A stretch of DNA of 64,000 nt from Tethya wilhelma. Its lineage: Eukaryota > Porifera > Demospongiae > Tethyida > Tethyidae. Positions 36,566 to 64,000 of this stretch are shown here, piece after piece. Position 1 is the stretch's first letter; each line of letters begins with the position of its first letter. The translations under genes and the position numbers were made by a program. The stretch spans positions 22,226,776 through 22,290,775 of the forward strand of contig CAXIPT010000001.1 in assembly GCA_964030475.1 (NCBI GenBank). Direction: 5' to 3'. The notes below the pieces were generated by a model. That model did not search any database, was not told the origin of the DNA, and saw only the letters and a program-made list of their open reading frames with translations.

Positions 36566-39500
36566 ATGTCATTGAGTGCTGATGAAATAGCTGGTGAAGA
36601 GTTTGGGCAAGACAGGCCTCCACTCTCAGAGATTATCAAGAGTATTTTGGAAAGATACCCAGATGGACAAATCTTCAAAGTAAGCCATTATATTTTCAGT
36701 TTAGACTGTACACTTGATAAGTTTGAATGTTTCATTTTCCTCAAAATTTAATAGTGTAGTAGCCATTTAGTTATTCAACTTGTGATTTTATGTATATGAG
36801 TCAATGACAAAGTTTAACTAGGTGGATAAAACAAATTAAGTATGGCTAATAATAACAAATCTACTAGGATGGTGCAAAGGATACTACTGACAGTGCACAT
36901 TAAGTGCATAGCACGTGCAGAGCTAGGGTTATGGTAGACTGTTGTTTGTGTGTGCATCTGTCTGTTACTGGATAATGTGAAGAATGGCAGCTCTATGGTC
37001 CAAAGGGAAGGTACTTACGTTCATGAATCAAAATTATCTTCAAAATGGTGTGTAAAATCTTGCAAAACAGTGTCCTTACTGAGATCTGAGCCTTTGGTAC
37101 TTTTTCTGAACGTTAGGCTTACGCCACGCCTATAGTATACAGTCACCCAGGTAAGAGTGCGTGTTATTTAGAAGCTTCTTGTAGTTCGACTGCTTTGTTG
37201 TGAGTTGCTTGATTTTATACTCCAATAACAATTTTGTTGTGTTTGAATCATACTTAACTAAAATTTATCCTGAGTGTTCCCGTATTAACCATATAAAAAT
37301 GTTACATTATGATTGTGGCCATGTGTTTGTATTAAGATGTACCAAGAGAGTTCATGTGCCTAATAGGAAATTGAAAATGCAAGTGTTGATTCATTATCAG
37401 TCTCTTCCCCAGTAAAAGGGTGTAAGGAAGGCAGAAAACACTGCCTGTGGCCATTGATTCAACCAGGTCAGCTTGGTTGTCTTGGATTGTCAAGTTTCTC
37501 CTTTGCAATTGTCCACGGACATATTCCTTTCCCCCCTTAGTGTAGGTTGAGTTGTACCCTGCTGATCAGTCTCATCAACGGGTGGGTGATAGGCCATACA
37601 TGCACCACATCCACTACTGTAGCATTTTTCATTTGTGCCTAGTACACTTTGATATCAGAACCTTCAGGCTACCATGCTGTGTGGGGTATGCCTTAGGAGA
37701 ACACAAAGCTTCCGTGGACAGACATGGCCACCTCCTGTTGGAATTCCTGATATTGAGCTGGGATTCTTTGCTCTAAGGCTCTGAGTGCCCTCTTGGACAC
37801 AAAAGATAGGTCAAGTATAGCTACAGTGCTCAAGTACTGACCACACAGGTATTCAGTTTGACAGTATAGAATGACCCTATCCTGGCCAGGTTGTCAAAGT
37901 GTTCCTAGCTATTATTAGCCACTTGAACTGGCCATGGTGACAACAACAGTCTACTATACACTTCCTGTATAACCTTAGTCAGGGCTGCATCACTATACTG
38001 AATATTCATTACAACAATTCTACATGTATACAATTTCTATTAGTCACTACACACTGTTGTGATCCAATTTTATCACCCATGGACTGTTATTGACTAGCTA
38101 TTTCTTATTTTTGATCATCAGCCACTTGATTAAACTGTGCTGTAGCAGGCTTAAGCTTTTTGTTCAAATTAAGCTGAGATATTCAAAAGTACCATGTAAC
38201 TATATAGTTCAGGATGTGTAACTACCTACCTCTTACCAGATGGATTGAATGGTCTTGTGTACATTAGTTTTCATATCTGAATTATATCCAGTGATAGCAT
38301 ACAGACAATTAATAGAATTTCTCAAGTCATTGTCATCCATGCCTCCTGTGAGTCTCTCCTTGAAGCTATCAGTGTTTGTGCATGTCTATATATGTACTTC
38401 GTTTTCATCATCTTCAAAAAAAATTATTAAGAATCTGAAAGACAATAGGTTTCTGTTGATATAATAATATTGTTATGGCTTACACTATTCTTTATTGATT
38501 TAAAGGAAATGATCCAGAATGCTGATGATGCTGGAGCCAAGAGAATCCAATTCTTCATTGATCACNATTAACAATCATGAGTTATAGGTGTGCCACAGCA
38601 TATTATAGTGGAAAATAATTTAAAAAATGAGTCATGTATGTGTATCTGTATGCATATTAGGAAGTGAGACTTTTGTGGGCCTGATTAACGTATAGTAGGT
38701 AAACTTGGTGAGAATTAAATTAATTTTGGTGAATTGGCAAATCGTGACAACCATTATCAATTCACGAGCAGAAACCACATGCAGGCAACTCTATAGCTTT
38801 AGTAGTTTTTAGCACTAAAGACTCTCTTTGTTGTCTTACTGCAGTCGGAAAGGTTCATTATTTGTAACAGAAGCATACTTTCACCTCCAAAATTGACATA
38901 GAACTGAATTTGCCAAAATATGTTAAGCCCGCCAAATTTGCTTGCTATACAGTAATTGAGTGAGTAACTACTTTGGCATGTGGTTAATAAGTGTTTGATC
39001 TTTTGATTTATATTTTGATTCCATTTTCATTACTACTAACAATTATGATTACGGTACTCATGCATAGATCTTCCAACAATAATCAGCGGTGAAAGGCTTG
39101 CCTATCTTGAACCACGGGAAAAGATATGGTCAGGTAAACCTGGAAGGTTGTACGAGCTTACAACATTGCAAAAATATGCAGTTGGTGCACTGAGGCCATT
39201 TGAAAATATTTTTGGCTTTAACCTCAAATCAACTAGCTATCCGTACACATTGTTTCGATTCCCCCTGCGCACTGCTCCCTCTGACCTATCTCAGACTATA
39301 TACAGCACGGAAAAGACAGAGGAACTGATCGATGCTTTGAGAGAAGAGGCTAAACTTTTGCTACTCTTCTTACGCTCAATTAATTCAATTGAAGTCTTCA
39401 GAATATCTGAGAATGGAGTTTATTCTCTTCTTTTTAAAACTTGTATTACACACAACTCCAAAGATGAAGTCAACAGAGTACGTACCCAATTCAAAAGAGA

Positions 39501-41701
39501 ACTTCAGAATGCTTATAAGCGTGAATCATTTAAGATGTCACGAATGCTAAACAGTACTAGCCAGTTCCAAGTGAATGTCACAGATTGTATGCACGAAGCA
39601 ACACATTCAACCACACACACTTGGTTAGTTGTCAATCAGGCAGGTTCACAAGTACAAGAGGTGCTTGAAGCATGCCAACAACAAAGTGTATTTCCATTAG
39701 TAGGTGCTGCACTAGAGCTAAATGAGGCCACCATGCAAGGAGGCAGAATATTCTGTTTCCTTCCTATGCCTGTAGAGATAGCCTCAGGCCTACCAGTGCA
39801 TGTCAATGGTACTTTCGGTTTGACAGATGATCGACGAAGCTTAAAATGGCCTGGTATAGAAAGAAAGAATGATCCAACAGCTAACTGGAACCGACTACTA
39901 GTCACAAAGCTACTTCCTTTATGCTATCTTACATTAGTCATTGAAGCCAAGAAGTGTGTATCACCTGAGCACTTTTATCAGATAATTCCACCTGTTAAGG
40001 CCATCCATGGTACTCAGTGGAGTGTGATTTTACAACCATTCCTGAAGCAACTCTTTAGAGAGCAAATTGTTTTCTCTCACCTATCAAAAGAATGGGTCAA
40101 TGTAATAGAACAGTCTACACTCTTTGTTCCACAGGGTGAAACTTTACTTCCTATTGTTCTGATTGTTTTAACTTCCTGTACCTTCAACCTTGTAAATGTT
40201 CCAAGTGTAGTGTGGGATGCTCTTCACTACATACATTTGCCAGCTGTCCAAGTATCACCAGAGCTTCTTAGAGAACAGCTACGTTCAAAACCTTGGAGCT
40301 ATACTAATCACAATGTAGAAGAAAAGAAAAGCCTACTTACGTATTGTCTTTCAGACAAGAAATATTCAGAATTGATTGGTATTGAGCTTATTCCACTTGC
40401 CAATGGAGGATTTACTTCCTTCCAAAGCATTCATCAATGTGGTGGTTATTATGTGTTTATCTGCAGTTCAGAATTTCCCAAGTACTTAGTGCCAAATCTT
40501 GATTACAAGCTTGTTGATATTTCATATGATTCTCAGCTACAAGAGAGCTTGTACGATGTTGCCAGTGCAAAAATAACAAACCTTTTACCTCTCAGTGAAG
40601 AATCTGTAGCCGCATTATTGAATGAAGCTCAACCAAAGGAATGGCAAAATAGTCATGAAGTGTCATTACCACATAGCAATTTTCCAACTGCTTGGTTTGA
40701 AAAGTTTTGGCTTTGGGTCAGAGACAAAAATTTGTGGCACTTCAATGGAAAGCTTATTGTCCCTGTTTCTTCCCCTAGTGAGCAACCGCTCAATGCTTTT
40801 CGAGTTGTAAGACTGACATCTACAGAGTCTTCTGTTTATGTTTGTTCCTATGATCACTGTAGCTTTTCACTACAAAAAGCTTTGACTAAACTCAAGGTAA
40901 GATATTCTATGCAGCAACATTTTCCATTTCTCAATCACCAGCAACTTCAATATTTACTCCCGATATATAACGCATTAAACTTATTAAATGCTGCATATAA
41001 AGCTTCTCATTATAGTAGTGTGAAATTCGAAAAAGATGAGGCAGAAGCTCTTCAAGCTTTCCTATGCCATTCTTCACTTGTGAATTGCAACTACCAACAG
41101 AAGAAAGTTCTTCAATGCATACCAATATTCAAGACTGCAACCAACTCCAGTGAAGTGCTATGTTCAGTCACTCAAGCAGCTTCCCATTCAATTGTGCATA
41201 AAGCATTACTCCTGCAGGCTAATTTCAACCTCAGCCTTGCTAAATTGCCTCCTAAACTTTTGCTTTTTAATCGAAGCTCACATAATCAAGTAACAATTCT
41301 GGAAAAGTATGCAAATGTTACCTCCATTTCTGATGTGGATCTGTTAACAAAATACATTTTCCCTTTAATCCATGAAGGATCATTTCCCAGACAGCTCATA
41401 AACCCATTAATGAAGGAAGTACTTGATCTGTTTAATGTATTTCAGCACAAAAACAGTACTTTTGCTACTAGTTTCCAGAACCTAGCATTTCTTGACACTG
41501 GCAATGGTTACCATCAGAAAGCCTCTCCAAGAAATACATTTGATCCTTCTGTACCAATACTTGTAGAATTGTATAAAGGACAGAAAGTATTTCCTCTCGA
41601 ACCATTTAACAAACAAAAGTATTTACAAGTACTCAGACAGTGTGGATTGCGTACTACAGTTACTCCACAAGAGATTGTCAGTATTGTTAGTGAAATTAGT
41701 A
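36566..41701 (+). CDS. Sacsin-like protein (gene C), N-terminal part, broken by single-N joins
   Basis: Exon 1 (36566-36679) encodes MSLSADEIAGEEFGQDRPPL...YPDGQIFK and ends at GTAAGC. Exon 2 starts at 38506 (EMIQNADDAGAKRIQFFIDH) and is cut at the N at 38566, losing about 200 bp of SRR1 including the GIGF motif. Exon 3 starts at 39068 (acceptor ATAG) and runs open to the N at 41702 (ending TVTPQEIVSIVSEIS), after which homology stops. It is the closest paralog of gene D, which is near-collinear with it. The uninterrupted text EPFNKQKYLQVL near 41600 shows the intact state of the site at which D and E are split. Function follows the sacsin family: HSP90-like ATPase repeat chaperone. Confidence 0.85.
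36680..38505 (+). other. Intron 1 of gene C
   Basis: GTAAGC...TTAAAG, phase 0. Longer than the equivalent introns of A and D; no supported gene inside. Confidence 0.7.
38566..39067 (+). other. Single-N join and remaining intron before gene C exon 3
   Basis: The base at 38566 is N and the sequence to its right does not continue exon 2. The acceptor ATAG lies directly before 39068. Confidence 0.7.
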
Positions 41702-42454: not shown

Positions 42455-42455
<1 letters not shown>

Positions 42456-42463
42456 TAGTGTAC

Positions 42464-45047: not shown

Positions 45048-45178
45048 AATTGCTCTGATCTGGCTCTAGCCACGTGCTGAGCCACGTGTACATTGCGTGA
45101 TAATTTTCATAGCTGCGCATGCGCGTGAGCTGTGCTGCTGGCCGGCCGGCCGACCGTGGCGCTGTCTCGATCTCTGCA
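45048..45178 (-). promoter_or_regulatory. Likely promoter of the HECT gene
   Basis: Two CACGTG E-boxes (near 45071 and 45083), a GCGCATGCGC palindrome (NRF1-like, 45115-45124) and a GGCCGGCCGGCC block lie within 130 bp of the ATG. Inferred from motifs and position. Confidence 0.45.
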
Positions 45179-45527
45179 GCCGCCTTCATCTAAAGCAAGA
45201 GCGCCTTCATGCAGAGCAAGACCGCCTTCATAAAGGCAGTAGTGCCTTCATCTAAAACAAGACCGCCTTCATAAAGGCAGTAGCGCCTTCATGCAGAGCA
45301 AGACCGCCTTCATAAAGGCAGTAGCGCCTTCATCTAAAGCAAGACCGCCTTCATGCAGAGCAAGACCGCCTTCATAAAGGCAGTAGCGCCTTCATGCAGA
45401 GCAAGACCGCCTTCATAAAAGCAGTAGCGCCTTCATAATATGATCAAGACCGCCTTGTGAATCATCAAACCATGTTCATAATATTGAGAGTATAATCGCA
45501 TAATTTTGGCACTAATAACACTTCATA
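45179..45527. repeat. Transposon terminal inverted repeat, right end, with 41-bp minisatellite
   Basis: 45179-45436 is a tandem array of about 41 bp units (CCGCCTTCATAAAGGCAGTA then GCGCCTTCATGCAGAGCAAG) with variants. 45437-45527 is the unique outer end, finishing ...CACTTCATA. Reverse-complemented, it matches 62804-63128 almost base for base at the outer end. Gene D sequence starts at 45528. Confidence 0.9.
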
Positions 45528-48500
45528 ATATGGTTCAAGGGGAAATACTCTCTGTCCCTTATACAATTCCACAAGTATTGGTAGAGAAGGATCAAATGTT
45601 TTGTTTGGACAGGCCTTCCAATGGTATCCAGTATCAAGGAATGCTATGTTTTGAAGACTAGTAGCAAAAGTAGTACATTTGTACTGAAAGACATTAAACA
45701 GATCAAGTACTTCTTTCATGAGTGGTACAGTAAGCTGACTAGGAAAAGATCCTGATTGGATTAATGGGAAAATGTTTTTAGTTAACAGATCTACGTCAGA
45801 AATTGAGTTAACACCTGCATACTTCTCCAAAATTCTCACTTGATTGTGTGAACTTCGATTAAAGAGCAAAAGATTGGGAGGGATATTAGCGAAGCTGAGG
45901 TTAAAGTTAGCCTCTATGAGTAAAGCTTTCTGTGTAATTGACTGAGAAGTTACATTATTGACTGAACAGAGTATCTCACTGGAATTGGTTGCAGTCTTGA
46001 AAATCGGAATACTTTGAAGAACGACCTTCTGTTGGTAGTTAAAGCTCACAAGTGAGGAACGGCATAGGAAAGCTTGAAGAGCTTCTGCCTCATCGTTTTC
46101 GAATTTCACACTACTATAATGAGAAGCTTTAAATGCAGCATTCAATAAGCTTGATGGATCATATTTTGTGAGAAATTGTTGTATTTGCGGGTGATCGAGA
46201 AACGGAAAGTGTTGCTGCATTGAGTATCTTACTTCTAGTTTTGCTAAGGCATTTTGTAGTGGAATACTGCACTGATCATAGGAATGAATGTAAATAGGCG
46301 ACTGTGTAGATGTCAGTCTTACAACGTGAAAAGCATTGGGTGGTTGTTCACTAGGAAAAGAAACAGGGACAACAAGCTTTCCATTGAAATATGCCAAATT
46401 TTTGTCTCTGACCCAAAGCCAAAATTTTTTGAACCAATTAGTTGGAAAACTGCTGTGTGGTAACGACACCTCATGACTATTTTGCCATTCCTTTGGCTGA
46501 GCTTCATTTAACAATAAGGCTACAGCTTCTTCACTGAGAGGTAAAAAGTTGGTTATTTTTGCACTGGCAATGTTGTACAAGCTCTTTTGTAGCTGAGGGT
46601 CATTTGAGATATCAACAAGCTTGTGATTAAGATTTGGTAGTAAGTACGTGGGAAATTCTGAACTGCAAAGATACACATGAGAAATATCATACTGATAAAT
46701 ACTTTGGAAGGAAGTGAATCCCCCATTGGCAAGTGGAATAAGCTCGATGCCAATTAATTCAGAATACTTATTGTCGGAAAGACAATACATAAGTAGGTTA
46801 CACTTTTCTGCTGAGTTAAATGTTGTATAGCTCCAAGGTTTGGAATGTAACTGTTTTCTAAGAAGCTCTTGTGACACTTGCACAACTCGAAAATTTGTGT
46901 AATCAAGAGCGTCCCAGACTAGACTTGGAACATTAATAATGTTAAAACCACAGGAAGTTAAAACAGTGAAAACAATGAGAGGTAAATTCTCATCATTTGG
47001 AACAAAGAGTGTTGACTTTTCTGCTGCATTGACCCATTTATTTGACTGGTTAGAGAAAATGATTCGCTCTCTAAATAGTTGCGTCAGGAATGGTTGTAAA
47101 ATCACACTCCACTGAGTACCATGGATGGCTTTAACAGGTGGAATTATCTGGTAAAAGTGCTCAGGTGATACATACTTCTTGGCTTCAATGACTAATGTAA
47201 GATAGCATAAAGGCAGTAGCTCTTTGACTAGCAGTCGGTTCCAGTTAGCTGTTGGATCATTCTTTCTTTCTATACCAGGCCATTTTAAGCTTCGCCGATC
47301 ATCTGTCAAACCAAAAGTACCATTGACATGCACTGGTAGGCCTGAGGCTATCTCTACAGGCATAGGAAGGAAACAGAATATTCGGCCTCTTTTGGGGGCA
47401 TCATTTAGCTCTAGGGCAGCACCTACTAATGGAAAGGTACTTTGTTGTTGGCATGCTTCAAGCACCTCTTGTATCTGTGAACCTGCCTGATTGACAACTA
47501 ACCAATTGTGTGTGGTTAAATGTGTTGCTTTGTACATACAATCTGTGACCTCCACTTGGAACTGGCTTGTACTCTTAAGTATTTGTGACACCTTAAATGA
47601 ATCATGCTTATAAGCATTCTGGAGGTCTCTTTTGAATTGGGTACGGACTCTGTTGACTTCATCTTTGGAGTTGTCTGTAATGCAGGTTTTGAAGAGAAGA
47701 GAATGAACTCCATTCTTAGATATTCTGAAGACTTCAATTGAATTAACTGAACGCAAAAAGAGAAGCAAAAGCTTGGCCTCTTCTCTCAAAGCATCAATCG
47801 GTTCCTCTGCCTTTTCTGTGTTGTAGATAGTCTGGGATAGGTCAGAGGGAACAGTGCGCAGTGGGAATCGGAACAATGTATATGGATAGCTAGTCGATCT
47901 GAGAGAGAAATCAAAAGTGTTTTCAAATGGCTTCAGTGCATCAATTGCATGTTCTTGCAATGTGGTAAGCTCATACGACCTTCCTGGTTTTCCTGACCAT
48001 ATTTTTTCTCGTGGTTTAAGATAGGCAAGTCTGCCACCACTTATTATTGTTGGAAGATCTATGTATATTAGTAACATAATACTAAATAAATAAATATGAA
48101 CCAAAGTATGAAATCAAAAGATCAAAACTTGTCAATTCTCTTTGCATTAACCTATAATTATACCAATGTAGCTATTTGTTCAATTGACATGCCCTTCATG
48201 AGAAGATTCATGAATCATTGTCTCTCTCTCAACAATTTCCAGTATATAATGATTATGATACACACACTCATGCACACACATGTATCCGAATATTTACTTG
48301 CTTCTACCCCTGATGCCACTGGGCAGACTTGAACTCACAACCCTAGAGTTATGAGCCAGCCAGAGATATTAACCTCTCAGCCACACACAAACACATGCAC
48401 ACAAGCACACACCATTACCCACTGTAATATCTATAGCCTATTAATTGACACACACATGTAAACAAAACATGTACATACCTGTAACATGATAGACGGAATT

Positions 48501-50867
48501 AAATCCGATTCCAAACTCTCCAACTTTGAATGGATCTTTTACCTTGATACTCTGTTGTAGCTTTTGGATTCCTATCCAGTCTTCTTCTGAAAAGGCAGCA
48601 TCATTTGCTGAAATGAGGGCTGGACCTTGATAGTCCTTCAGTTTCTCATTCGGAAGGGAAGAAGTCCCATGCTGTCTGTGGTCAATGAAGAATTGGATCT
48701 TCTTGGCCCCAGCATCATCAGCATTCAGGATCATTTCCTATGATAATAGAAGTCAGTAAAGCCTATTTTTATTGACAAACACACTATTTAGGAAAGATTT
48801 ATGATAATTAAAACTTAAGCAAGTAATGTTGACATACTTTGAAGATTTGTCCATCAGGGTATCTTTCTAAGATGCTCTTGATAATCTCTGAGAGTGGGGG
48901 CCTCTCTTGCCCAAACTCTTCCCCAGCTACACTGTCACTTTTTCTGTATTGGTTATTCATATATTGATCATTAATTTGTCATGCATGAATGGTTACTAAA
49001 TAAATGTGGTGACATTATGCAGTTATGACATGCATAAGCAAAATAATTACAGGATAAATTTTAAGGTATGAATATGATAACAGTTTATTTTTTGCAGTTT
49101 ATGGAAGATGACCTCAAAAATACTGGCAATCCATGCAGGATTTCCTAGCTGTATTTCTTTCCCTAAACCACAAAAAATAGGTGATGTAAAACGTAATATT
49201 AATGCATGAAAATTTGAATCCATGGCCATATTAATATCCGCAGAGTCAAAATAAAAGGTTTCAGCTTAAATTATAGCCATCAAATTTTGTTTTACAGAAA
49301 GGTATTCTATTCAAACTGTTGTTAATTATAAGAGAGAGAGAGCTATTTTATAGAGTTTATTACCTTTGCAACCACCACCATGAATAAAGATTAAATTAAG
49401 TAAATAAATTAATACTACTAACCTAGACATTATTATATCTGAAGTGCTGTCTGGGGGTTGGAATAAAATGGGAGAGGTCTCACTGTTAATATTTGTGGAT
49501 GTACATGAAATAGGAGAAATCTCACTGTGGGCATATGGTAGAGTAGAAGGGGTCTCAATGTCATTAGCACAAGATTCTTGATGGAATTGTGTCATTGTTG
49601 CTAAACCATTGGTTGGTAGTTGTTGTTGGTATATGACAATAATACCATGACGTATCAGTGCACTCAGTTGTGAAGTAGTGAGAGGGAAAATTGGAGCTTC
49701 ATAAGATGGAAAGCTTCCAAAAGCCAGTTGTATGCAGCCTTCGTCAATATCAAGCAGACGGATGCATGCATGATCAAGTTCAATTATAGTAGCTATTTTC
49801 TTTTGAACAGCCCTAATGTCATTCATGGAAAATACAGCAGGCTTTTGTGTTTCAGACCGTGTACCAAACCACATTTCACCAATTACTTTAACTACTAGTA
49901 CTGGACCGGAAGAAGACTGACAGTTGATAGCTTTAGGGGGAATTTCAAAAATGTTTCTTTCACTAAACTGGGTAAATTTTTCTACGTATGATTTCAAATC
50001 TTTTTTGCATTCTAAGCAGTGTTCGTTGATTATCTTTTCCAGGATTCTGTAATTTATAAATGAGATATAGTCATGATGGATCAGAAATATTTGAATGTCA
50101 GATACAGTTGTTATTGTTTTTAACTCTTCACCATGCTCTTTCTGAATTCGCCTAGGAAGACCAACTCGACCAGAGGAAAAAATTGTGCATATGATATCTT
50201 TCACAGGTATTTTTTGTTCCTTTAATGAACTAAATACAATTTTTAAAAAGTTTTGGAAATCCTCAATCATTCTTTCTGTATCAGCTATAAGTTGATGCTG
50301 TAGTGTTTCCCTTTGAACCTCATTTAAATGATCGAGGTCGAGATGTGGAAATGACTTTTCTTGTTGTCCTGGGCATTTTGATGTATCCCTAAAGTATAAT
50401 TCAACACTGCAGTGTCCACAGGGACATTTGAAACCACAAGCTTCTACTTCTGTAGTACTTCTTGCAGAATCAGTGACTCCACTAGTTCTGCTCTCGGTAG
50501 GATCTACAACTCCCCATTTTAGATCACAAGCTAGCTTGGTCAAGTTCAATTCCTGGAGGATGCTGACAAAGTCATCAAAATGAGTAGCACTGTCCTTGAT
50601 TTTATCTAAGATCTGGCTCATGAGGATACTAGCCCTGTGATATTCATTCTGGTTCAGATTATCTGCTTGTATCTTGTTATAACTTGAGATAAGAGACTTT
50701 GAAAGGGCATGGACAGCAAACTCCACAACAACTGACCGTACACCACTTACTAGACGAGGAAAGTTTTGGACAAATACTTTGTACTGAGGAGATTCAGGTG
50801 TTTCCTCCACAGTAGGTGAAGCTACTGCAAGAGATACTGCATTTTCTGCTTTCTTTTCTACTTCCAT
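45528..50867 (-). CDS. CARD-sacsin fusion protein (gene D), C-terminus lost at transposon
   Basis: Exon 1 (50867-49423) starts at ATG (MEVEKKAENAVSL) and encodes a CARD-like death fold (about residues 35-130: ALSKSLISSYNKIQADNLNQ, RASILMSQILDKI) and a Cys-containing helical module of unknown function. It ends ATG TCT AG before donor GTTAGTA. Exon 2 (48943-48838) begins with A, giving MSRKSDSVAGEEFGQ, which aligns with gene C's start MSLSADEIAGEEFGQ. Exon 3 (48737-48479) carries the SRR1 ATP pocket but reads EMILNADDAGAK, with Leu replacing the usual Gln. Exon 4 runs from 48058 to 45528, ending at FPLEPY where the transposon repeat begins. The residues up to the TGA near 45465 are transposon sequence. 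All phases agree (2, 0, 1). The acceptor before exon 2 is pyrimidine-poor, so transcripts should confirm the fusion. Confidence 0.8.
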
Positions 50868-52360: not shown

Positions 52361-55300
52361 CTATTCATAAAGTGTTTGTACAACCTTCAAAACTTGCTGT
52401 GCATGCTCGTTTGCATTGTTTGCTTCAAATACACCAAACATTTCAGCTGGTGCTTTACCAGCTGGGCACTTATTCGGGTAGCGAGGATCTAGATAGTAGT
52501 TTTCAAGTGGAGACACATGTGTAACAAGTTCTGGTGGATCTAATTTTCTCACAGTTTGTAAGGCATAAGCATGCCTTGTGAGGTTGTGATCTTTCAGACC
52601 TCTTTCATCCAGACCGTTCTCCATGTACATAGCTCCTTTCAAGGCTTTCTCTGCAACTTGGTGTGCCATGAAGCAGACATGACCAGCAAGTTCAAAATCA
52701 CTTGGCTGTATTTGATCATGTAAAATTGTCAAAACACGAAAGTCAACAGTAGCTTGCCGTATCCACCGTTTACCTTCTAGTGTATCCTTCTTAGGCTGAA
52801 ACTGAAAACTATCAAATGGAGAATTGGTATAGGATCTTTCACTGTTTTGGGCTCTAAAATGTTGTTGCCCATAGTAACTACTTTCTTCTCCACTTCTAGA
52901 TCCTCTGTATCGCTCATGCTCTTGTTGATGAAAAAACTTGTGTTGTCCTGCAGTGTAGTTCCATTGACCGAATTGTTGCTGCCATCTTTCTCTTGGCAAG
53001 GGATTATCTGAGGATGCAGCCTCTAAACGTTCAATCTGTGTTACCAAATACTTGAAAATTTCTTCTGCAAATTGAGCATTATCTAGATTTTTGTCAGGAT
53101 GCCATTTGAGATACAATCGTCGAACAGCTCTCATTCTTTCTTCTTTGGGTAGCCTCCATATTTCCTTGAGAACACAATCTATTTGTTCCTTACAAGCTCT
53201 TACTTTAGCTGGATTATTTGTTGGTGTACTTGTATCTCTCGCTCCATCATAAGTTTGAACAGCATTTGAGCATTCTTGTGTTAGAGATGGTTTTGTTAAT
53301 CCTCTCAAAAATTTATATAAGTCGATGACACTTACGTTAATCCCTTCTTCATCATCATTTTGGTTAATAAAGATTTTGTATTTCATCTCAAATTGTGATA
53401 TGGTATCTAAACTTTCACCTTGAGGAAGAACTGCATGCACAATTTGAGCAAGGATGATTTCCCCATTTATGTTGTAGCCGACATATTCCATTGGGTAGAA
53501 AATGTTGTCAAGATCCTGATCAAGTCGGTGGTGCCAACATTCAGGGATTTTTCTACCCAGTTTCCAAACAGGGTTGTCAATTATGGCTCCAGCAATAGGT
53601 ATTTTTGCTCTTTGTAATACCTCCATAATATCATCTGAGGATTCAGCTTTCAGAAAGTATGCAACATGCTTTTGTATTTTGTAAATTGCTTGTGGTTCAA
53701 TATCTGGGAGTGTTTGTTTCATTAGTGTAATCAAAGCTCCTGCTAGTTCTTTGATAGCATATTCCTTTGATATGTTAGAAATACTTGTGTCTAGGTAGAG
53801 TGTGCACCCATTGACCTTGTTTTCAGACAAGAAATACTTGACTGTCTTATTACCAATTACTACTCCGTGTTCCTTATGGATTATCATTGTCTGCAGATTG
53901 TTAACAACAGTTATATCAACATTTGAGACTAATGTAGCCATTTGTGGTTCCAAGTTAGAACAATCACCATCATGGTAATGTTTGACCACACTCATTGTAG
54001 CAGTTACTAGAATAGGAATGGACAATGCCAGTTTCAGCTGATCAGCAACTTCTGCAGAATGATTATTATCAACCGCTTTGCAACTTGTATCTAATGTCTG
54101 CTCACAGATTTCTGACAGAGCTACGGGTCTTATGCATTTTGGCAAAAGTTGACAAAAATCGGATTCGTAAAATTTATACTCTTCAACTGGCAAATGTACT
54201 AATAACAAGTGTTCAGAACCGGAGAGGTCAAGTTTTCCTCTGAAACTTGGTTTGTCACGATACACAAGTTGTGTGGACTTGACTAGTGTTCCTCCTTCAC
54301 TAGGAAGAAATAGTGGATCCAATGCATTTTGTATGTTGGATTTACTCATTTGTTGACTTTTTGGGTTATTATGGCCTGCAAGTCTCCACAGAATATCATA
54401 TAATTCCTTCAGAGTAAATTGAATGCACCTCTTTGTGTTTATATCAATCTGTTGTTCTTCAGCATGTTCAAACGCAAGTTTAAGAACTAGCTGTAAATGA
54501 TGCAATTCAATTTTACTCTTAACACCTAACTTTGATAACAGCTGCTCAGCAACTGAATACAGGCTTTCAGGTAAAGCATGTAGAAATGGATGGCTCCACT
54601 GGACATCACATTTAAGAACACATTGAGGCTTGACAAGAACTACTTGCCTTGTGTTGATATGAGCTGGTGAACTATAAACTGGTATGCAAGGTATGTCTTG
54701 GAGAAGTTCAAAATCTAAGTCATTTTCAGAGAAATAATCTTCAAAAAAGCTAAAATGTGTTTTCACAATTTTCATCAAATCAGTTGCATTTATGGGACAC
54801 TTTAGTCCTTCAGGATAGTTGTAGAACAAAGTTTGGCTAGTAAATTGACTTTCTTCACAAAAGTGCTTCATATTTTCAATAACATCATCTACACAAGGTA
54901 AAACACACACATTTAGAGCTTGAAGAAGTCTTTGGATTTCAAGTTGTCCTAGTGTCTTAGTGTATGGTGACTGAATTACTGGTTTCACAGTCCATAAAAG
55001 AATTGCATTGTCGCCTGAATCAGTTGTTACATCACAAAATCTTGTCAATCCAATTATTTCACCATTAATCGAAATCATTTTGGTAGGAGTGGCAGCTGGC
55101 TTGAGCCAAGTTAAATTAAGAAGTTGTTTGGAATATACATAAGGAATCCTAGAAACTGCTTTCAAAAATGTGTGATTACTGTGCCATTTTAGTTCTGATG
55201 CTTTGTAGGAGAAAAGATAGTTTACCAGTATTGTTGATGCTTCTAGTGGATTGGAAGTTTGTCCATTTGCTACGTTGTTACAGAGTTGTAGATACTCATC

Positions 55301-58300
55301 AGTAGTAGGCGATTTATGTAAGCCTATCTTAATGAAAAAATCCATCCATTCTGAGCTTTCATACTCATTCTCAGTGAAATACTTTGGTAAGAATGAAAAT
55401 GTATCATGAAAAGCTGAAAAAATCTTCACTTGATGGCTATAATAGCATGAGGCTGGTTTAAGATCCTCATCATCTCCTCCAATGCAGCAAAGTGATTTTA
55501 GCTCTGCAAGAAAGTCTTGAGCAATTTTTTTCTTCTTTTTGAGTTCTTCATCAGCTGTTTTGACTCGAGCTGTTTTGACTCGAGCTTCAGAATTTGCTCT
55601 GTCCAATAAATAATCTCTAATGTGTCTTAAATGATCATATCTTTCTGTTTGTGACATGAAGTTAAATTTTGGAAAGATAAACTGGACATACAGCTCTTCA
55701 GGGGTTATGCTTTCTATATCTAGCTGCTCAGCTGATCCAAGCTTGGTCCAATCTCCATGTTGTACTACGAACACAGCATCAGTGTCGTTCAGCCATTTCT
55801 GATATCCAGATTTACAGACGTTGTTTGGCCACACAAAGGCATATTTTCCTTGAATTGATGCAAATTTTCCTTCGATGTTTTCAAACAATGGGAGTGACTT
55901 TACATGTTGTTTGCTTTTGTAGTCATGTCTGAAATCAATCGCACTTAAATAGCGAACAAGATCCTTAATGCTTGATCTAGTTAGCACTCTGGAAAGATTG
56001 TGATCATTATTAAGGAAAGAAATGTTTTTCAAGATAAGTTTTTGCTCATTGAGTTGAGGACAAGAATTTTGATGTCCCTCAACAACACTTTTGTCCAAGA
56101 ATGGCATCTTCATTTCATTAAGTAGTTTGCAAATAAAAAAATTTGGATCCTCTTGACTTGAAGGAACAACTGGCAAAAGTTGGCTCTGAGTAGAAATTAG
56201 ACGTCCATCTACTGTTAATAGTAAGGTCCAACGCTTAAGAATACATGACAAATAATGATTGAAAAAAGAGTCATTAGTAAGACATTTCCAAAGTGATCTA
56301 AGTTCACCTTTAGTAAGGTAATTTAAGTAGTACTCGATAATACAAATTCCTTCTAGCTCTGGTGGCAAGAATGTAGTGAGAATTTCACAAATGAACTCCA
56401 AACCTTCATTGGTCTCATTTGATAAGCTAGAATTCACAAAATATTCTAGTGAATACCCTATGCCTGTGAGCTTTGAATGAAGAAATTTGTCTGAGTTTAC
56501 AGCAAATAACTGACAGAAGTTAGAAACTAGCACTTTTTCGTTCTTTTTGAAACACCGTAAAATTCCATCGTTGGTCAAAAGAAGTGGTATTCCATATGGA
56601 TCAGACGGAAACTTATACACATCAGTCTCCACATCATGATACAAGATGTATTTGGTAAATTCTACAAAGTTTGAAACTGATTCAAATGGTGTTTCAGCAA
56701 TTACACAAGCAACAGGATAATGTTGAGAGGAAGCTTGCTTGTAGAATTCATACACAGATGCTGGAGTAGTTTCAAGGAGCTTTGGCTTATCTTGATCAAT
56801 AATGGAATCAAAGCTAATCTTCATTCTATAAGGAGCTGATGATATTTTCATGCCAATTTTCCTTAAAATTGGTCTTATGACACTGTTATCATGATCACGC
56901 AACAACAAAGATCTAGTTGTCCATATAAAAACCTTATGCAGGGGTGAAGTGCTTATTGGACGACACCACTGAACTTGTGATGGCTGATTGGCTTGGTGAT
57001 AAATAACTGCTAAGCATGGGGAATTATTCTTGTAGAGCACTTTGTACATAGTTTCTGCCAATTGAAACCACGGTTTTTGAAGAGTTGAAGTGGATATGTC
57101 AGGAAACAATTTATAGTAATTTTTAATAGAAACAAAAAGATGGTGAGTATCCACATAGAAAGTTTGACAATCCACCAAAAATTTTGCATAAGAAGATGCT
57201 ATAGCTACAAACAGTGCATTGTTCCATTCAGAACGTTCATCAGTCTCGTCTGGGTTTGTAGCTCGCCAAAGGTTTCGACGAGTAGAATTAAGTATGAAGT
57301 TTCCATTGATGTGCACTGGTAACCCACTTTGTATTGGAAGGGGAAGAAAGCAAAACACTTGACCATTTAGCCATTTTTTTGGGGAAAATGATGGCTGAGA
57401 AATTTTACTAGCTGTCATTTCAGTTTTAGAGTTGGCAGAGGCCTGAGATATACTCTTTGTTGTGTGTACATGTTTGACATTTTGCCTTTGAGAATCTGAT
57501 CTTATTATGTGTAAGACTGGCTGCGAACTTTTCAATGTTGGTGGTTGGATTTCCTCTGATTGTGAGAAACTACCCTCAGATCTAGACTGATGGCTCTCAA
57601 ACCTGTAGTTATCATTACTCGTAACAATTGGTGCTGCAATACCATGCCTTGGTTTCACTTTATCAACATACTTCCATAACTGCTGATAGTTTTCAATGTC
57701 ACCAACACCTTGTTGAATCAGCCACTTTTCTTCATCAACCTTTTGTTCAGTTGTACCACTTTTTGTAATATCTGACATGGTAAGTGGATACATAATCACA
57801 TGAGACCTGTTGCCAGTTTTGTTCTTGAAGGCTGATATATACTTTTGCAATTCCATTCGTTTTTTTTGATCAGCACTGTTAACATTTGTGCAAAAGTGAT
57901 TCTGAGTTGTTATTACTTGACTACTTTTCTCAATTGTACAGAATTTGAGTTCAGTAACATAGTTGAGAAACAGCATTGCGTCTTTCATTTTAGCTGCCCA
58001 GAGTCTTAGAAGATGGTTCATTTTTTCTGCTGTAAGTAGTTGTCTTTGACTATTGTCAACTATCTTAGAAATTTGTATTAACTCATCTGTGTGTCTCAGT
58101 GGGAACCGAAAGAGAGAACCCCTTGATAGTTCAGGAGGGCAATTTTCAAGATTACATTGTAGATAAGCAGATTTAATATCAGAAAAGGTTTCCCATAGAC
58201 CTTGCTTCAAATCATCATATCTCCTTCCAGGATCCATAGGATTAGCACCAGGTACGTATCTACAATGAGGATCCATTATGCACAGTGTTTCTCCACCAGT

Positions 58301-61300
58301 GATAAAACTAGGGCAGTCAGTGAGATGATAGACCACATTGAAACCAATTCCATACTGACCAATGCTCTCTGCATCTGATCGTTTGCTTCCAAGTCCAAGC
58401 TCTTGAATTCCTTTAAGGTCTTTCTCACTGAATGTGCTGTCATTCCATACAAGAAGAGCTGGCCCTTGCAACTTTTTCCATTCCTTTGAGAGAACACTCT
58501 CTGTGCCATGAGTTCTTTTATCTAAAATGATGTACATCTTTGTTGCTTTAGCATCATCAGCATTTTGTAGAAGTTCTTTCAAGACAGTAATGTCAAAAGG
58601 ATAATCTCGAATGATGTTACTAATTCTCCTCGTGAGTTCTTCTCTTTGTCCAAAAGGAACTCCACTAAAATATGTTGCTGCTGATGATACATACTTTTCA
58701 AGAAATTTGCTTATAACTGGCTTAACATTAAGTTTCTCAGCAAGTTCTCTTGAAATAAATCCATTGACATATGTGTGAGTAGTATCTTTTGGAGCCCAAG
58801 GAGCATCATTGTAGGCAAGTTCAATGGACCAATGTAAGACAAAATTTTCATCTGGTAGCATGATCTTGAAGTTATTAAATTGATCAGTGTTGACTTTATC
58901 AAGTATAGGTATAAGTTCTTTTAGGAGCATTTGGCATTGTTCATTGACTGGGTTATCACCAAAATCATTTTTCATTTGAAGTAATCCCTCATGGACATCT
59001 TCTATACTAAACTCATCTTTGATTTTCAAGAATGCTGAGAGTTTCTTACGATATTCTAAGCTGGTTGGCAGTGAAAACAAGTATGGACCTTTCAACTTCC
59101 AGTTCCTTGCTAAATTTGTAGTGGCCAAAAATACTTCTCCGTTCCATATGCATGGAAAAGTGAAGAGATTATGCAAGCTAGATGGAGCAGAAAGTGTAAC
59201 TTTGTTTTCTTCTGTATGTACCACTATGATTTTATCCAGGAAAGAATATGCTTGTCTACATAGCTGATCACACCATTCATTCAATTCTTTTGACATTTGT
59301 TTTCCATGATAAGTATCAACAAGCAGTTTCAAATGACTGATTACCTCTTCACAGGTGGGTGAAGCTCTGATATGCAGCAGCTTTAGTGTTTCCGGGCTAA
59401 TCTGACCACACCCACCTTCTTCGGGAGAATATTCACAAATAAACTTGACTTGAGAGCCACAAATGATTCTGTTGTTTGTATATTTTCCACTAACTACCAA
59501 TTTTCGACCGCTTGAAAGGTGGATTCCTTCTCCTTTCCATGGTAGATGATAGTCAGCTGGTTTAGTTAATACTGGTAAGAACTCGATTAATTCAATGGTA
59601 ATTCCGATGCTTGCTGGGCAGTTTTCCTTGGGTCTATGATTTTCCAGAGTGTGTATGAGTAGCTTTACTCTTTGCAAAGCCTTTGTTTGATTATTCACAT
59701 AAAGGTTTGGTACGGTTTGAGCTCGTTCTATGAGATATTTCCAGGGAAGTTCTTCATGTATCATCTCAAGATTGCCTAAGGCTGAACAAACAAGATCCCT
59801 TTGAAAAAATTCTTGTATAGGAAAGTATGATTCATTCTTATCAAAGAGCTCTGCAAAGGGAGCAAATGGTGAAATAACATCTTTACACTTTCTGAGAATA
59901 GTACCATCTGGTGTGCATGGAATACAAGCATGTGAATTGAGATATCCTTCAAAGCTGTAACACCGACTTGTCCCATCATCATATTCTGCTTCATACACTT
60001 CTAGCATGTGAATGATGAATAGGTTTCTGCTTTGCTTAATTTCACTTAACTTTTTCAAATTCTTGAAAAACAACTCAATGAACTTTTCCTCTGTAATTGT
60101 ATACTCAGATAGTGGCATGTGAATTTTGAATGCTTCTGGAAGCTCTACTATTGGTTGTTTTAAATGTGAAGCAATCTTCACAACACACTCCACAGGCCCT
60201 TGGGACTCACTGCTTGATACCGAGTGCCTTAGTATTCCCTGTTGCAAAAATTTACATTCATTTAGGGTTAACCATTTCTTTGAATTTTTTGAGTAAAACA
60301 AACATTTGGATGATATAGAAATCATTCTGTAGAGCTCTGTAATCATTTTGTTCCATGGATTGTGTTGCAAAAGGTTAGTTGTTATAGGCCACAATGAATA
60401 GAACACATATTCATGTAACAACCTTTGGTGACACATGTTTTGTAGCTCACAGAGTAAGTCAATGTAGGCTTTGGGTATGACTGTTTTCATAAGACACACA
60501 TTCCATTGAACTTCAGTGTCTGTTTTGGAAGTAGCATCGTCAGCAGTCCATATTCCTCTTCTGTTATTTATGACAGCAAAGTTACTACTGACATGTACTG
60601 GGAGACCAGTCTTCTGGGACAAAGGCAAGTAACAAAACACCTCTCCTTCCTGGTTAACAATGGACGAATAGTTACTAGAAGTTGGAGCAGGTAACCATTG
60701 CAATTGACAAGCTATTGAGGCTGATGCAGTTTTTTGTTTAATCACATATGATGCATGAGCTATCAACCAGTGCTCTTTACTAGCTAGTGAATGGTGAAAT
60801 TTGTCACTGTACATGATATTGCATCTCAACTTTTCAGTATTTGCAGTTTGAGGTATTGGTTGACTGATGGTTTCTTTGGTTATTGTCAAAAGCACGGTTG
60901 GTGATCGTTTTCCGGTAGCAATACTTTGAAAGGTAATACGCTTTATATGTTGTAGGAAAAGCAACAGCTTGGAACCACAAGTCTGGATATCCTTTATCAA
61001 TTGTTTCACTGTAGCCTCTGTGTAGAGTGTACTACTAAGCTCACTTGCACATGATCGAAAAGGAAATCTGAAAAGTGTTCCTTGATATGATTTCCCTGGT
61101 TGAAATCCAAACAACCCGTGGTAAGGTAGTAGTTGGTTTGATTGTGCTATAAATTTGGATGTAAATTTCACTGTTTTGCCGGGTTGAGAAGAGTTTTTGA
61201 CTTCTTTTCGTAAAGCTACCAGTGTGGGATCAAATATGCACAGTCTGTCTTTACTGACAAAAGAAGGTACATCAGTGATGTGGTACACGGAACAGAACCC

Positions 61301-62803
61301 AATGCCAAATTTACCAATCTTTAGCTGTTTATCTCTTTTTGTTGCTCCAGCTAGCTTGGTGATATTTTTGAAATCTTCTTCAGTAAATGTCTTGTTGTTG
61401 TGAACTATTAATGCTGGTCCGTGTGACTCCAGCATACCTGGAAAGAACAAGCTCTTTGGTGGTGCTGTGTGAGTACGAGCATCATAGCAAATGTTGAGTT
61501 CAGTTGCCTCAGCATCATCGGCATTTTGAAGCAATTCTTTGACTATGGTAAGACCATCTTTGTAGTCTCTCAGAATGTTCTGTAATCTGGTTGTAAGAGG
61601 TTCATGTTGACCTGTATCTTCGAATGTGTCTTCGGAAATATCCAAATATTCACTCAGTGGAGTTAGACCCAAACACTCAGCCAGATTTTTAGAAACACGA
61701 CTATCAACAAATGTGTATGTATGATCTGAGCCACTAGACATGAGAAACTCTTTGAGGAAATCATTGTCTGTGTAAACAACATCCTTACTTTCTCTCAGTT
61801 GTGGCCACTCTAACTTTGATTGAATTGGAACATAGAGGGGTTCATTGTATGACAGTGAGACTTGTCTTGTCCCATTGTTAGTAATCCAGTTCAGTATGCT
61901 CAACACAATATCCCAAGCATTACTCACACTCACTGTAGGGGAAGAACTGTTTCTGATGTTTTCTAAAACTGATAAGATTTGTGATTGAGTCATACATTTT
62001 TTTACTCCGAATTTTGCAAAAAGTGTAGCATATTCTGTCAGACTTTCAGGTAGTACAAAAAGGTAAGGCTCCAAGTTATGTTGAAATGTAGGATTAAAAT
62101 TGAACGCAACCATTTTTGGACTTACAAAGCTGTTGTGCCTTTTAAAGTAAATCCATTTCTTAATGTTGCTTAATGTTATGATGTCATGATTACTCAAAAT
62201 ACTGTTCAAAAAAGAATAGATGTTGACTACAAGCTGGTTTAAATGATCTGCTGACAGCATATCTTTATGTTTAATTATTTGTTTAAAATGGGATAAAACA
62301 TGTATTGTTAATTGATGTTTCTCAAAAAGCTCAACAACTGTTTGAGATTCAATAGAAACAACAAACATTTGAGATCCAACAAGACAGGAGATAGTTTCAA
62401 CATCATTGGGACCCACAACTACCACTTCACTGCTCAGTGAAATGAAGTGGCTATCATAACCTCTTCCTCGCCATGGGAGACAAGAAGGGTAGCTAGTAGG
62501 GGGGTTGGCCAGTACTTGAAGCCAAGATGATGTCTTAGCAAGATGATTTATAGCTGTTTGGAAAGTTAACTGTTGGAATCCAGAGATAATGCAGTATGAA
62601 GAATATTGGTGTTGTGATTCTACAGTTCCCATGTGGCAAAGAACTGCTTTCGACCTAGACATCTTTAGCTGGTCAACTTGTTTTGGCACTGAACTTGTTG
62701 GTGTACTAATTTCACTAACAATACTGACAATCTCTTGTGGAGTAACTGTAGTACGCAATCCACACTGTCTGAGTACTTGTAAATACTTTTGTTTGTTAAA
62801 TGG
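52361..62803 (-). CDS. Sacsin-like protein (gene E), C-terminal three quarters with J and HEPN domains
   Basis: A single open exon starts abruptly at the transposon end (62803, in frame as PFNKQKYLQVLRQCG) with no start codon of its own, and continues to the stop at 52361. SRR2 begins near 61610 (KELLQNADDAEAT, FGIGFCSVYH) and SRR3 near 58650 (KELLQNADDAKAT, YGIGFNVVYH). Long sacsin-specific regions follow, then a J-domain (KWHPDKNLDN, near 53100) and a HEPN domain (from about 52790, GHVCFMAHQVAEKALKG). This is the expected C-terminal architecture, and it would complete gene D exactly, since D ends one codon region before E begins. As assembled it is a 5'-truncated copy unless transcribed from the transposon. 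Some tracts (58230-58590, 60500-60640) are unusually similar to gene A at the DNA level. Confidence 0.9.
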   Translation of the reverse strand, partial: PFNKQKYLQVLRQCGLRTTVTPQEIVSIVSEISTPTSSVPKQVDQLKMSRSKAVLCHMGTVESQHQYSSYCIISGFQQLTFQTAINHLAKTSSWLQVLANPPTSYPSCLPWRGRGYDSHFISLSSEVVVVGPNDVETISCLVGSQMFVVSIESQTVVELFEKHQLTIHVLSHFKQIIKHKDMLSADHLNQLVVNIYSFLNSILSNHDIITLSNIKKWIYFKRHNSFVSPKMVAFNFNPTFQHNLEPYLFVLPESLTEYATLFAKFGVKKCMTQSQILSVLENIRNSSSPTVSVSNAWDIVLSILNWITNNGTRQVSLSYNEPLYVPIQSKLEWPQLRESKDVVYTDNDFLKEFLMSSGSDHTYTFVDSRVSKNLAECLGLTPLSEYLDISEDTFEDTGQHEPLTTRLQNILRDYKDGLTIVKELLQNADDAEATELNICYDARTHTAPPKSLFFPGMLESHGPALIVHNNKTFTEEDFKNITKLAGATKRDKQLKIGKFGIGFCSVYHITDVPSFVSKDRLCIFDPTLVALRKEVKNSSQPGKTVKFTSKFIAQSNQLLPYHGLFGFQPGKSYQGTLFRFPFRSCASELSSTLYTEATVKQLIKDIQTCGSKLLLFLQHIKRITFQSIATGKRSPTVLLTITKETISQPIPQTANTEKLRCNIMYSDKFHHSLASKEHWLIAHASYVIKQKTASASIACQLQWLPAPTSSNYSSIVNQEGEVFCYLPLSQKTGLPVHVSSNFAVINNRRGIWTADDATSKTDTEVQWNVCLMKTVIPKAYIDLLCELQNMCHQRLLHEYVFYSLWPITTNLLQHNPWNKMITELYRMISISSKCLFYSKNSKKWLTLNECKFLQQGILRHSVSSSESQGPVECVVKIASHLKQPIVELPEAFKIHMPLSEYTITEEKFIELFFKNLKKLSEIKQSRNLFIIHMLEVYEAEYDDGTSRCYSFEGYLNSHACIPCTPDGTILRKCKDVISPFAPFAELFDKNESYFPIQEFFQRDLVCSALGNLEMIHEELPWKYLIERAQTVPNLYVNNQTKALQRVKLLIHTLENHRPKENCPASIGITIELIEFLPVLTKPADYHLPWKGEGIHLSSGRKLVVSGKYTNNRIICGSQVKFICEYSPEEGGCGQISPETLKLLHIRASPTCEEVISHLKLLVDTYHGKQMSKELNEWCDQLCRQAYSFLDKIIVVHTEENKVTLSAPSSLHNLFTFPCIWNGEVFLATTNLARNWKLKGPYLFSLPTSLEYRKKLSAFLKIKDEFSIEDVHEGLLQMKNDFGDNPVNEQCQMLLKELIPILDKVNTDQFNNFKIMLPDENFVLHWSIELAYNDAPWAPKDTTHTYVNGFISRELAEKLNVKPVISKFLEKYVSSAATYFSGVPFGQREELTRRISNIIRDYPFDITVLKELLQNADDAKATKMYIILDKRTHGTESVLSKEWKKLQGPALLVWNDSTFSEKDLKGIQELGLGSKRSDAESIGQYGIGFNVVYHLTDCPSFITGGETLCIMDPHCRYVPGANPMDPGRRYDDLKQGLWETFSDIKSAYLQCNLENCPPELSRGSLFRFPLRHTDELIQISKIVDNSQRQLLTAEKMNHLLRLWAAKMKDAMLFLNYVTELKFCTIEKSSQVITTQNHFCTNVNSADQKKRMELQKYISAFKNKTGNRSHVIMYPLTMSDITKSGTTEQKVDEEKWLIQQGVGDIENYQQLWKYVDKVKPRHGIAAPIVTSNDNYRFESHQSRSEGSFSQSEEIQPPTLKSSQPVLHIIRSDSQRQNVKHVHTTKSISQASANSKTEMTASKISQPSFSPKKWLNGQVFCFLPLPIQSGLPVHINGNFILNSTRRNLWRATNPDETDERSEWNNALFVAIASSYAKFLVDCQTFYVDTHHLFVSIKNYYKLFPDISTSTLQKPWFQLAETMYKVLYKNNSPCLAVIYHQANQPSQVQWCRPISTSPLHKVFIWTTRSLLLRDHDNSVIRPILRKIGMKISSAPYRMKISFDSIIDQDKPKLLETTPASVYEFYKQASSQHYPVACVIAETPFESVSNFVEFTKYILYHDVETDVYKFPSDPYGIPLLLTNDGILRCFKKNEKVLVSNFCQLFAVNSDKFLHSKLTGIGYSLEYFVNSSLSNETNEGLEFICEILTTFLPPELEGICIIEYYLNYLTKGELRSLWKCLTNDSFFNHYLSCILKRWTLLLTVDGRLISTQSQLLPVVPSSQEDPNFFICKLLNEMKMPFLDKSVVEGHQNSCPQLNEQKLILKNISFLNNDHNLSRVLTRSSIKDLVRYLSAIDFRHDYKSKQHVKSLPLFENIEGKFASIQGKYAFVWPNNVCKSGYQKWLNDTDAVFVVQHGDWTKLGSAEQLDIESITPEELYVQFIFPKFNFMSQTERYDHLRHIRDYLLDRANSEARVKTARVKTADEELKKKKKIAQDFLAELKSLCCIGGDDEDLKPASCYYSHQVKIFSAFHDTFSFLPKYFTENEYESSEWMDFFIKIGLHKSPTTDEYLQLCNNVANGQTSNPLEASTILVNYLFSYKASELKWHSNHTFLKAVSRIPYVYSKQLLNLTWLKPAATPTKMISINGEIIGLTRFCDVTTDSGDNAILLWTVKPVIQSPYTKTLGQLEIQRLLQALNVCVLPCVDDVIENMKHFCEESQFTSQTLFYNYPEGLKCPINATDLMKIVKTHFSFFEDYFSENDLDFELLQDIPCIPVYSSPAHINTRQVVLVKPQCVLKCDVQWSHPFLHALPESLYSVAEQLLSKLGVKSKIELHHLQLVLKLAFEHAEEQQIDINTKRCIQFTLKELYDILWRLAGHNNPKSQQMSKSNIQNALDPLFLPSEGGTLVKSTQLVYRDKPSFRGKLDLSGSEHLLLVHLPVEEYKFYESDFCQLLPKCIRPVALSEICEQTLDTSCKAVDNNHSAEVADQLKLALSIPILVTATMSVVKHYHDGDCSNLEPQMATLVSNVDITVVNNLQTMIIHKEHGVVIGNKTVKYFLSENKVNGCTLYLDTSISNISKEYAIKELAGALITLMKQTLPDIEPQAIYKIQKHVAYFLKAESSDDIMEVLQRAKIPIAGAIIDNPVWKLGRKIPECWHHRLDQDLDNIFYPMEYVGYNINGEIILAQIVHAVLPQGESLDTISQFEMKYKIFINQNDDEEGINVSVIDLYKFLRGLTKPSLTQECSNAVQTYDGARDTSTPTNNPAKVRACKEQIDCVLKEIWRLPKEERMRAVRRLYLKWHPDKNLDNAQFAEEIFKYLVTQIERLEAASSDNPLPRERWQQQFGQWNYTAGQHKFFHQQEHERYRGSRSGEESSYYGQQHFRAQNSERSYTNSPFDSFQFQPKKDTLEGKRWIRQATVDFRVLTILHDQIQPSDFELAGHVCFMAHQVAEKALKGAMYMENGLDERGLKDHNLTRHAYALQTVRKLDPPELVTHVSPLENYYLDPRYPNKCPAGKAPAEMFGVFEANNANEHAQQVLKVVQTLYE

Positions 62804-63128
62804 TATGAAGTGTTATTAGTGCCAAAATTATGCGATTATACTATGAACAATATGAACATGGTTTGCATGATTCACAAGGCGGTCTTGATCATATCATGAA
62901 GGTGCTACTGCCTTTATGAAGGCGGTCTTGCTCTGCATGAAGGCGCTACTGCCTTTATGAAGGCGGTCCTGCTCTGCATGAAGGCGCAAGCATCTTTGAT
63001 GAAGGCGGTCTTGCTTTAGATGAAGGCGCTACTGCCTTTATGAAGGCGCAAGCATCTTTATGAAGGCGGTCTTGCTTTAGATGAAGGCGCTGCTGCCTTT
63101 ATGAAGGCGGTCTTGCTCTGCATGAAGG
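62804..63128. repeat. Transposon terminal inverted repeat, left end, with minisatellite
   Basis: The outer end TATGAAGTGTTATTAGTGCC starts at 62804 and matches the reverse complement of 45437-45527; the minisatellite (units with GAAGGCGGTCTTGCT and GAAGGCGCTACTGCC) spans about 62876-63128. The 6 bp before it, AAATGG (62798-62803), match ATATGG (45528-45533) beyond the other end with one mismatch, as a target duplication would. Confidence 0.9.
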
Positions 63129-63223
63129 TGTGCTTTGCCGGTTAGGGGAAGGGTTGACCTTTGAACCTAGTCTCTAGGTAAGGGGTCATCAAAGCGAAAA
63201 ATTGGCTAGCAAATATTTACAGC

Positions 63224-63924: not shown

Positions 63925-64000
63925 GTAAGTTTAGATCAGTTTGTGGTGTTTGTGTATTTGCATGTGTCATGAATATGTGTGTGTTGTGTACTTGTGTGTA

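Follow-up and report, generated by a model that had tools for sequence, protein, structure and literature searches.

Fusions of sacsin-type ATPases with death-fold domains have been described before. A 2013 report described fusions of sacsin-like proteins to DEATH domains in the sponge Amphimedon queenslandica, with a predicted role in apoptosis or immunity (PMC3710099, in excerpt), while a second report (PMC8195603, likewise in excerpt) describes multidomain proteins, 357 of them in Amphimedon, that combine a constant Death-like and TRADD-N unit with variable C-termini; their DEDD2 clade includes a sacsin fusion published in 2021, and mobile elements were proposed to have aided such fusions. 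Here we analyzed a 64,000-nucleotide stretch of the genome of the sponge Tethya wilhelma (contig CAXIPT010000001.1; hereafter the window, whose numbering we use), in which a minus-strand module with a predicted CARD fold precedes a sacsin first-repeat gene at a distance of 480 bases. Judging from frame and context, this module is most likely spliced to the sacsin gene, with a probability of about 0.52; the product would then have about 1467 residues and consist of a CARD module and one HSP90-like repeat. An earlier, sequence-only reading of this locus had noted that it knew no such architecture from vertebrate sacsin; the published DEATH-sacsin and TRADD-N-sacsin fusions are precedents. The general kind is thus known, and the present member of it has a CARD fold instead of a Death domain, together with a single truncated repeat. 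Should the fused protein exist, the published links between sacsin-type chaperone ATPases and death-fold signaling would gain, in a sponge, a version of CARD type with a single repeat.

When the four minus-strand exons listed in Table 1 are joined, they form a single unbroken frame of 1467 residues plus a stop, with no N across the locus, and the sequence-only reading was correct in that the join is in phase and the later phases agree. The minus-strand open frame 50942-49326 includes the ATG at 50867 and reaches ATGTCTAG followed by GTTAGT, with the donor after 49423. The exon join reads MSRKSDSVAGEEFGQ, and the start of sacsin paralog C at 36566 reads MSLSADEIAGEEFGQ; the residue-by-residue match claimed for these two leaders holds for their equal lengths but is weaker for their sequence: ahead of AGEEFGQ the two share only M, S, and D, of which the upstream exon supplies M and S. 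The interval 42365-64000 is free of N, so no N-marked scaffold join accounts for the adjacency of module and sacsin.

Splicing is supported by this single frame, by the fact that the module leads other domains elsewhere in the genome, by the start contexts, by the rarity of such adjacency, and by the published precedents. The module ATG has a good context (A at -3, G at +4), and the in-frame sacsin ATG at 48960 a poor one (T at -3, A at +4). At seven of the nine paralog loci read, the in-frame ATG has A at -3 (in three cases as the second of paired ATGs); locus L051 has no in-frame sacsin ATG, and at L055 the exon was not found. If 75 module copies and 11 sacsin first exons are assumed, a rough and post hoc estimate puts at about 0.003 the number of module copies expected by chance within 1 kb upstream of a sacsin first exon and on the same strand.

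The upstream exon is supported as holding a CARD fold by structure prediction, in which residues 25-120 adopt a six-helix death fold of the CARD type, with the CARD of APAF-1 as the top fold match (19% identity). APAF-1 has other domains beyond its CARD, which the gene model described here lacks; here the frame leads to sacsin. The sequence-only reading had called this domain from the letters and proposed a profile search as a check: the fold prediction bears the call out, whereas Pfam CARD (PF00619) gave no match on the window's module exon at E up to 1. CARD was likewise absent from the Pfam matches listed (25 of 32 families) for 34 members of the module family, and none of the 27 CARD matches in the genome coincides with a module match when compared by eye. 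Searches of the module against Pfam, PDB sequences, and profiles returned no confident named family; a profile search aligned the tandem CARD of IFIH1 (E 1.4), over the CARD region only. Homotypic CARD-CARD assembly of the module is conceivable.

Downstream, the sacsin identity of the frame is clear from matches to SACS, with the third exon matching at C1:22275243-22275515 and the fourth at 4.8e-14; the last exon also matches the sacsin crystal structures 5v47 and 5v44 by sequence. The motifs EMILNADDAGA and GEFGIGFNSVYHVT we take to be the N-box and glycine-rich motifs of the sacsin GHKL ATPase, and the sacsin part presumably binds ATP. Named proteins nearest to it include those of the sponges Geodia barretti (46%) and Dysidea avara (39%). 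The sacsin ATPase anticipated by the sequence-only reading is therefore present, but not as a giant protein: the frame stops at 45465 after one repeat, cut by a transposon end, and contains no C-terminal DnaJ, HEPN, or further repeats. Comparison of the sacsin part with paralog C over 844 codons gave a ratio of nonsynonymous to synonymous substitution rates (dN/dS) of 0.30 (NG86) or 0.39 (YN00), a pairwise value that cannot tell which of the two copies is constrained; identity to the outgroup protein P0008 is 67.2% for the truncated sacsin and 67.1% for paralog C. From these comparisons, the sacsin part looks to be under constraint and not an old ruin.

Both transposon ends, which split a sacsin gene, carry terminal inverted repeats and a subterminal minisatellite. 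The sacsin part meets the transposon end at 45527 and a second sacsin gene, B, starts at the complementary point; ACCAT is present at either side of the split, and paralog C represents the uninterrupted site. P0008 continues uninterrupted across the split point, with 67% identity to the truncated sacsin and 66% to gene B. The transposon boundary, ACCAT, the paralog C site, and P0008 together indicate that the sacsin part is the front piece of a transposon-interrupted gene and gene B the matching back piece. Beside the transposon ends we observed a HECT-like gene, recognized by eye, at 42455-45065 (two pieces without a Pfam hit) and, at 63182-63928, a frame resembling helix-turn-helix/integrase proteins, with matches that stay under the Pfam cut-offs.

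The module is about 420 residues long, with the CARD as its first part, and it is not confined to this locus. The module exon has 94 matches in its own genome, of which the next 49 after the window's own are 44-64% identical; we counted about 75 copies by eye rather than 94, since some matches are pieces of one copy. Alignment A1 (34 sequences) and the family counts draw on 30 of the 94 matches, taken with short flanks, and on 12 stretches of 10 kb; matches with stops, short coverage, or duplicates were removed before alignment. At some loci, such as L011, a single frame contains two copies. Among ten module tails scanned, three run into a match above the curated cut-off, namely DUF6861 (L021), CABIT (L031, 4.7e-10), and FN3 followed by a septin/AIG1-type GTPase-like stretch (L041, 5.6e-33 for FN3); a fourth runs into an ATG16-like coiled coil below the cut-off (L013), and six show nothing near a Pfam cut-off. 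At L031, L041, and L013 the module continues into its partner within a single open frame. Kinase pieces lie downstream of the module, in further frames, at L027 and L028. Outside its own genome four module-like proteins were found (35-51% identical), to which a search with the alignment as query added none. The module is a lineage-expanded N-terminal unit with varying partners and fits the published type of a constant unit with variable partners. The sequence-only reading missed this family: a frame-compatible splice to sacsin is available, but the CARD belongs to a multicopy module that elsewhere leads to other domains. Not recognized by Pfam CARD but a CARD by predicted fold, the module points to dozens of candidate genes for immunity or cell death in this genome that would escape annotation by profiles.

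Several observations weigh against a splice from the module to sacsin. Scored with generic splice-site frequencies rather than with values derived from this genome, the acceptor at 48943 is weak (-0.06), and the best of the 27 AGs in the interval lies at 49162 (4.42); its use would terminate the module protein near 49114, before sacsin. Phase agreement is cheap, with the needed phase found in one of the four positive-scoring donors of the tail; the donor at 49364 in the same copy scores slightly better (3.86 vs 3.32) in phase 1, and the best donors in 41 module tails, the window's own included, are in phase 0 or 1, whereas the donor of the join is in phase 2. These family donors, with a median p of 0.29 against shuffles, were not counted in favor of splicing, since they are hardly better than shuffled sequence. 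Nucleotide similarity to paralog C stops at 48929, barely within the exon, and does not reach the join. The annotated sacsins of Geodia (P0007) and Dysidea (P0013) begin with a short leader of their own, and Pfam Death or CARD is found in none of five annotated sponge sacsins (one of them partial), though Pfam would miss the CARD of the module too. With the fused protein as query, the best local alignment never covered more than 58%, approximately the sacsin share, in the 120 matches listed of 540. Finally, one of the 94 module matches lies within 1 kb of the SACS matches compared (19 of 43). Among the loci compared, neither the putative intron 49422-48944 nor the 1.5 kb preceding the module had a match other than itself.

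A serious but less likely alternative is that of two neighboring genes, in which the module ends alone, at the terminal exon beginning at 49162 or at the stop at 49326, while sacsin starts at the ATG at 48960 (MNNQYRKSDSVAGEEFGQ...) and the in-phase join is coincidental. A phase match is expected by chance in one case out of three, the interval's best acceptor is followed by an in-frame stop and AATAAA, and paralogs A and C as well as P0007 and P0013 have, as here, an in-frame ATG beside the sacsin exon. That ATG, however, lacks the favorable context seen at most paralog loci, only 366 bases separate it from the module stop, and the two AATAAA/ATTAAA signals in the interval compare with 1.65 expected by chance. 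A very unlikely alternative invokes overlapping transcripts, with sacsin transcribed from an internal ATG at 49430 and spliced from 49423 to 48943, so that MSRKSDSVAGEEFGQ would be its leader and the module transcript would be separate. This would account for the equal leader lengths and for the alignment of the MS of the join with the paralog C start codon, and the ATG at 49430 has A at -3; nonetheless, it requires a promoter within the module exon and makes the open module frame, in phase into that ATG, a coincidence.

Whatever the transcript, and thus also if the module is spliced to sacsin, the product may be no more than a passing by-product of rearrangement by transposons, a chimera that is truncated, probably useless, and heading to decay; we consider this somewhat unlikely. 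Sacsin is cut exactly where gene B starts, with transposon ends at both sides, and P0008 runs uninterrupted across the cut point, as this explanation would have it. By contrast, the frame is open throughout, the pairwise dN/dS is low, and the distance to the outgroup is no greater than that of paralog C, although the transposon insertion may be too recent for decay to show.

Beyond the CARD, the module contains a cysteine motif in which C148, C150, G151, C153, and C165 are each conserved in at least 90% of A1 and which may form a metal site. It is followed by a helical middle region without a Pfam match above the curated cut-off in the window's copy. In the C-terminal part, G377 is invariant and C378 at least 90% conserved in A1; they lie at the turn between low-confidence predicted strands (369-375 and 378-383), which agrees with the tiny residue plus Ser/Cys expected in the strand 2-3 turn of TRADD-N (PMC8195603, in excerpt). 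The elements predicted here (E324-326, H348-361, E369-375, E378-383, H398-406, and E409-411), all with a low predicted local distance difference test (pLDDT) score, can be set beside the expected RRM-like beta-alpha-beta-beta-alpha-beta fold; a separate model of the region had a mean pLDDT of 53.9. The C-terminal part of one of the 34 members (L045) matches PF20694 at 1.3e-4 and 22.1 bits, below the cut-off of 23.7, and a genome search with PF20694 found one place, outside the module matches. The PF13820 search gave no match anywhere, controls included, and is thus uninformative. For this AlphaFold model, which is of low confidence, Foldseek returned nothing below E 0.6. We infer a TRADD-N identity for this end of the module, the membership of which neither profile nor fold establishes.

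Set against the described systems, the Tethya locus resembles the Amphimedon fusions in being a sponge combination of a death-fold domain with a sacsin ATPase, but instead of a Death domain it carries a CARD fold as part of a longer module, and its sacsin portion is one truncated repeat without HEPN (PMC3710099, as excerpted). With the TRADD-N proteins it shares a multicopy N-terminal unit, a death fold first, a later Gly-Ser/Cys strand turn, and varying partners such as kinases, and differs in that its TRADD-N identity is established by neither profile nor fold (PMC8195603, as excerpted). It has the SACS domain and GHKL ATPase motif sequences of vertebrate sacsin (SACS), but a single repeat where that protein has three, neither DnaJ nor HEPN within the frame, and no ubiquitin-like N-terminus seen (compared with the excerpt of PMC3710099).

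If a module-sacsin protein is made, its CARD end could recruit or nucleate a death-fold signaling complex, and its TRADD-N-like part could restrain the CARD end, as proposed for TRADD-N (PMC8195603, in the excerpt); the ATP-binding sacsin repeat might sense unfolded protein or products of an invader and then release this restraint. Assembly, sensing, and an immune role of the protein are conceivable from the families involved, as is the link to inflammasome-like signaling suggested by the sequence-only reading. It is unlikely, in our view, that this transposon-rich locus yielded a working CARD module plus single sacsin repeat in which an HSP90-like ATPase, not NACHT or NB-ARC, gates the CARD as a compact ATP-switched sensor, with the approximately 75 module genes serving the sponge as a set of CARD receptors whose sensors are interchangeable.

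Table 1. Features of the module-sacsin locus and its surroundings, in window coordinates.
Feature	Position	Strand	Remarks
Module exon, 481 codons plus two bases	49423..50867	-	ATG context ATCACG/ATGG
CARD-fold domain, residues 25-120	50508..50795	-	predicted fold
Conserved Cys motif C-x-C-G-x-C...C, residues 148-165	50373..50426	-	alignment A1
Helical middle region, residues 173-310, no known family	49938..50351	-	predicted fold, alignment A1
TRADD-N-like region, residues 324-411	49635..49898	-	Gly-Cys (G377, C378) between two predicted strands, low confidence
Putative intron, module to sacsin, GTTAGT...AATACAG	48944..49422	-	donor 3.32, acceptor -0.06, frame-compatible
Sacsin exon encoding ...AGEEFGQERPPLSEIIKSILERYPDGQIFK	48838..48943	-	homologous exons in other sacsin loci
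Sacsin exon with motifs EMILNADDAGA and GEFGIGFNSVYHVT	48479..48737	-	SACS match at C1:22275243-22275515
Terminal sacsin exon of the gene model; last ~20 codons within transposon end	45465..48058	-	SACS 4.8e-14
In-frame ATG, alternative separate sacsin start	48958..48960	-	poor context CAATAT/ATGA
Alternative ATG near module exon end, sacsin-alone leader MSRKSDSVAGEEFGQ	49428..49430	-	A at -3
Alternative terminal exon of module gene	49084..49162	-	best acceptor of interval, in-frame stop ~49114, AATAAA at 49089
Transposon end cutting sacsin part	45204..45527	-	inverted match to 62804-63128, 88.7%; terminal repeat
Sacsin gene B, without first repeat	52361..62812	-	two SACS stretches, HEPN, sub-threshold DnaJ match
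Sacsin paralog C, own start MSLSADEI...	36566..41701	+	no upstream module match; interrupted by N at 38566, 41702
Sacsin paralog A, own start MMSNPVITGREFGQ	2701..15928	-	no upstream module match

Exons homologous to 48838-48943 are present in paralogs A and C and in six of the seven other loci read, the exception being L055. Elsewhere in the genome, at C7:2370959-2383535, a module lies 11.5 kb upstream of the sacsin exon of L051, with a reverse-transcriptase frame between them, and may represent a second module-sacsin fusion. On C2, Death matches at 12386375 and 12434471 lie 7.7 and 4.6 kb upstream of front SACS exons on the same strand, making these loci candidate Death-sacsin genes as in Amphimedon. 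The comparison with modules, which took in 94 Death matches out of 150 listed and 19 SACS matches out of 43, is not an unbiased count, since the last five Death entries were chosen near modules or on contig C50; of these Death matches, four follow a module on its own strand, 1.4-5.7 kb downstream.

Paralog C, which is bounded by N at 38566 and 41702, shares 101 bases of exact inverted identity (41601-41701) with gene B (62704-62804). This resembles an overlap in the assembly graph, and paralog C may therefore be misplaced or a piece of an alternative haplotype. Long open frames that overlap in several reading frames at 17686-18798 are an artefact of the N run 17774-18689, with which they coincide. 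At the window's start, a plus-strand frame (2-922) with DnaJ and HEPN matches probably represents the rear portion of another sacsin gene on that strand. A plus-strand retroelement occupies 22277-25144; it matches reverse transcriptase, RNase H, and the integrase zinc-binding domain, and more weakly protease.

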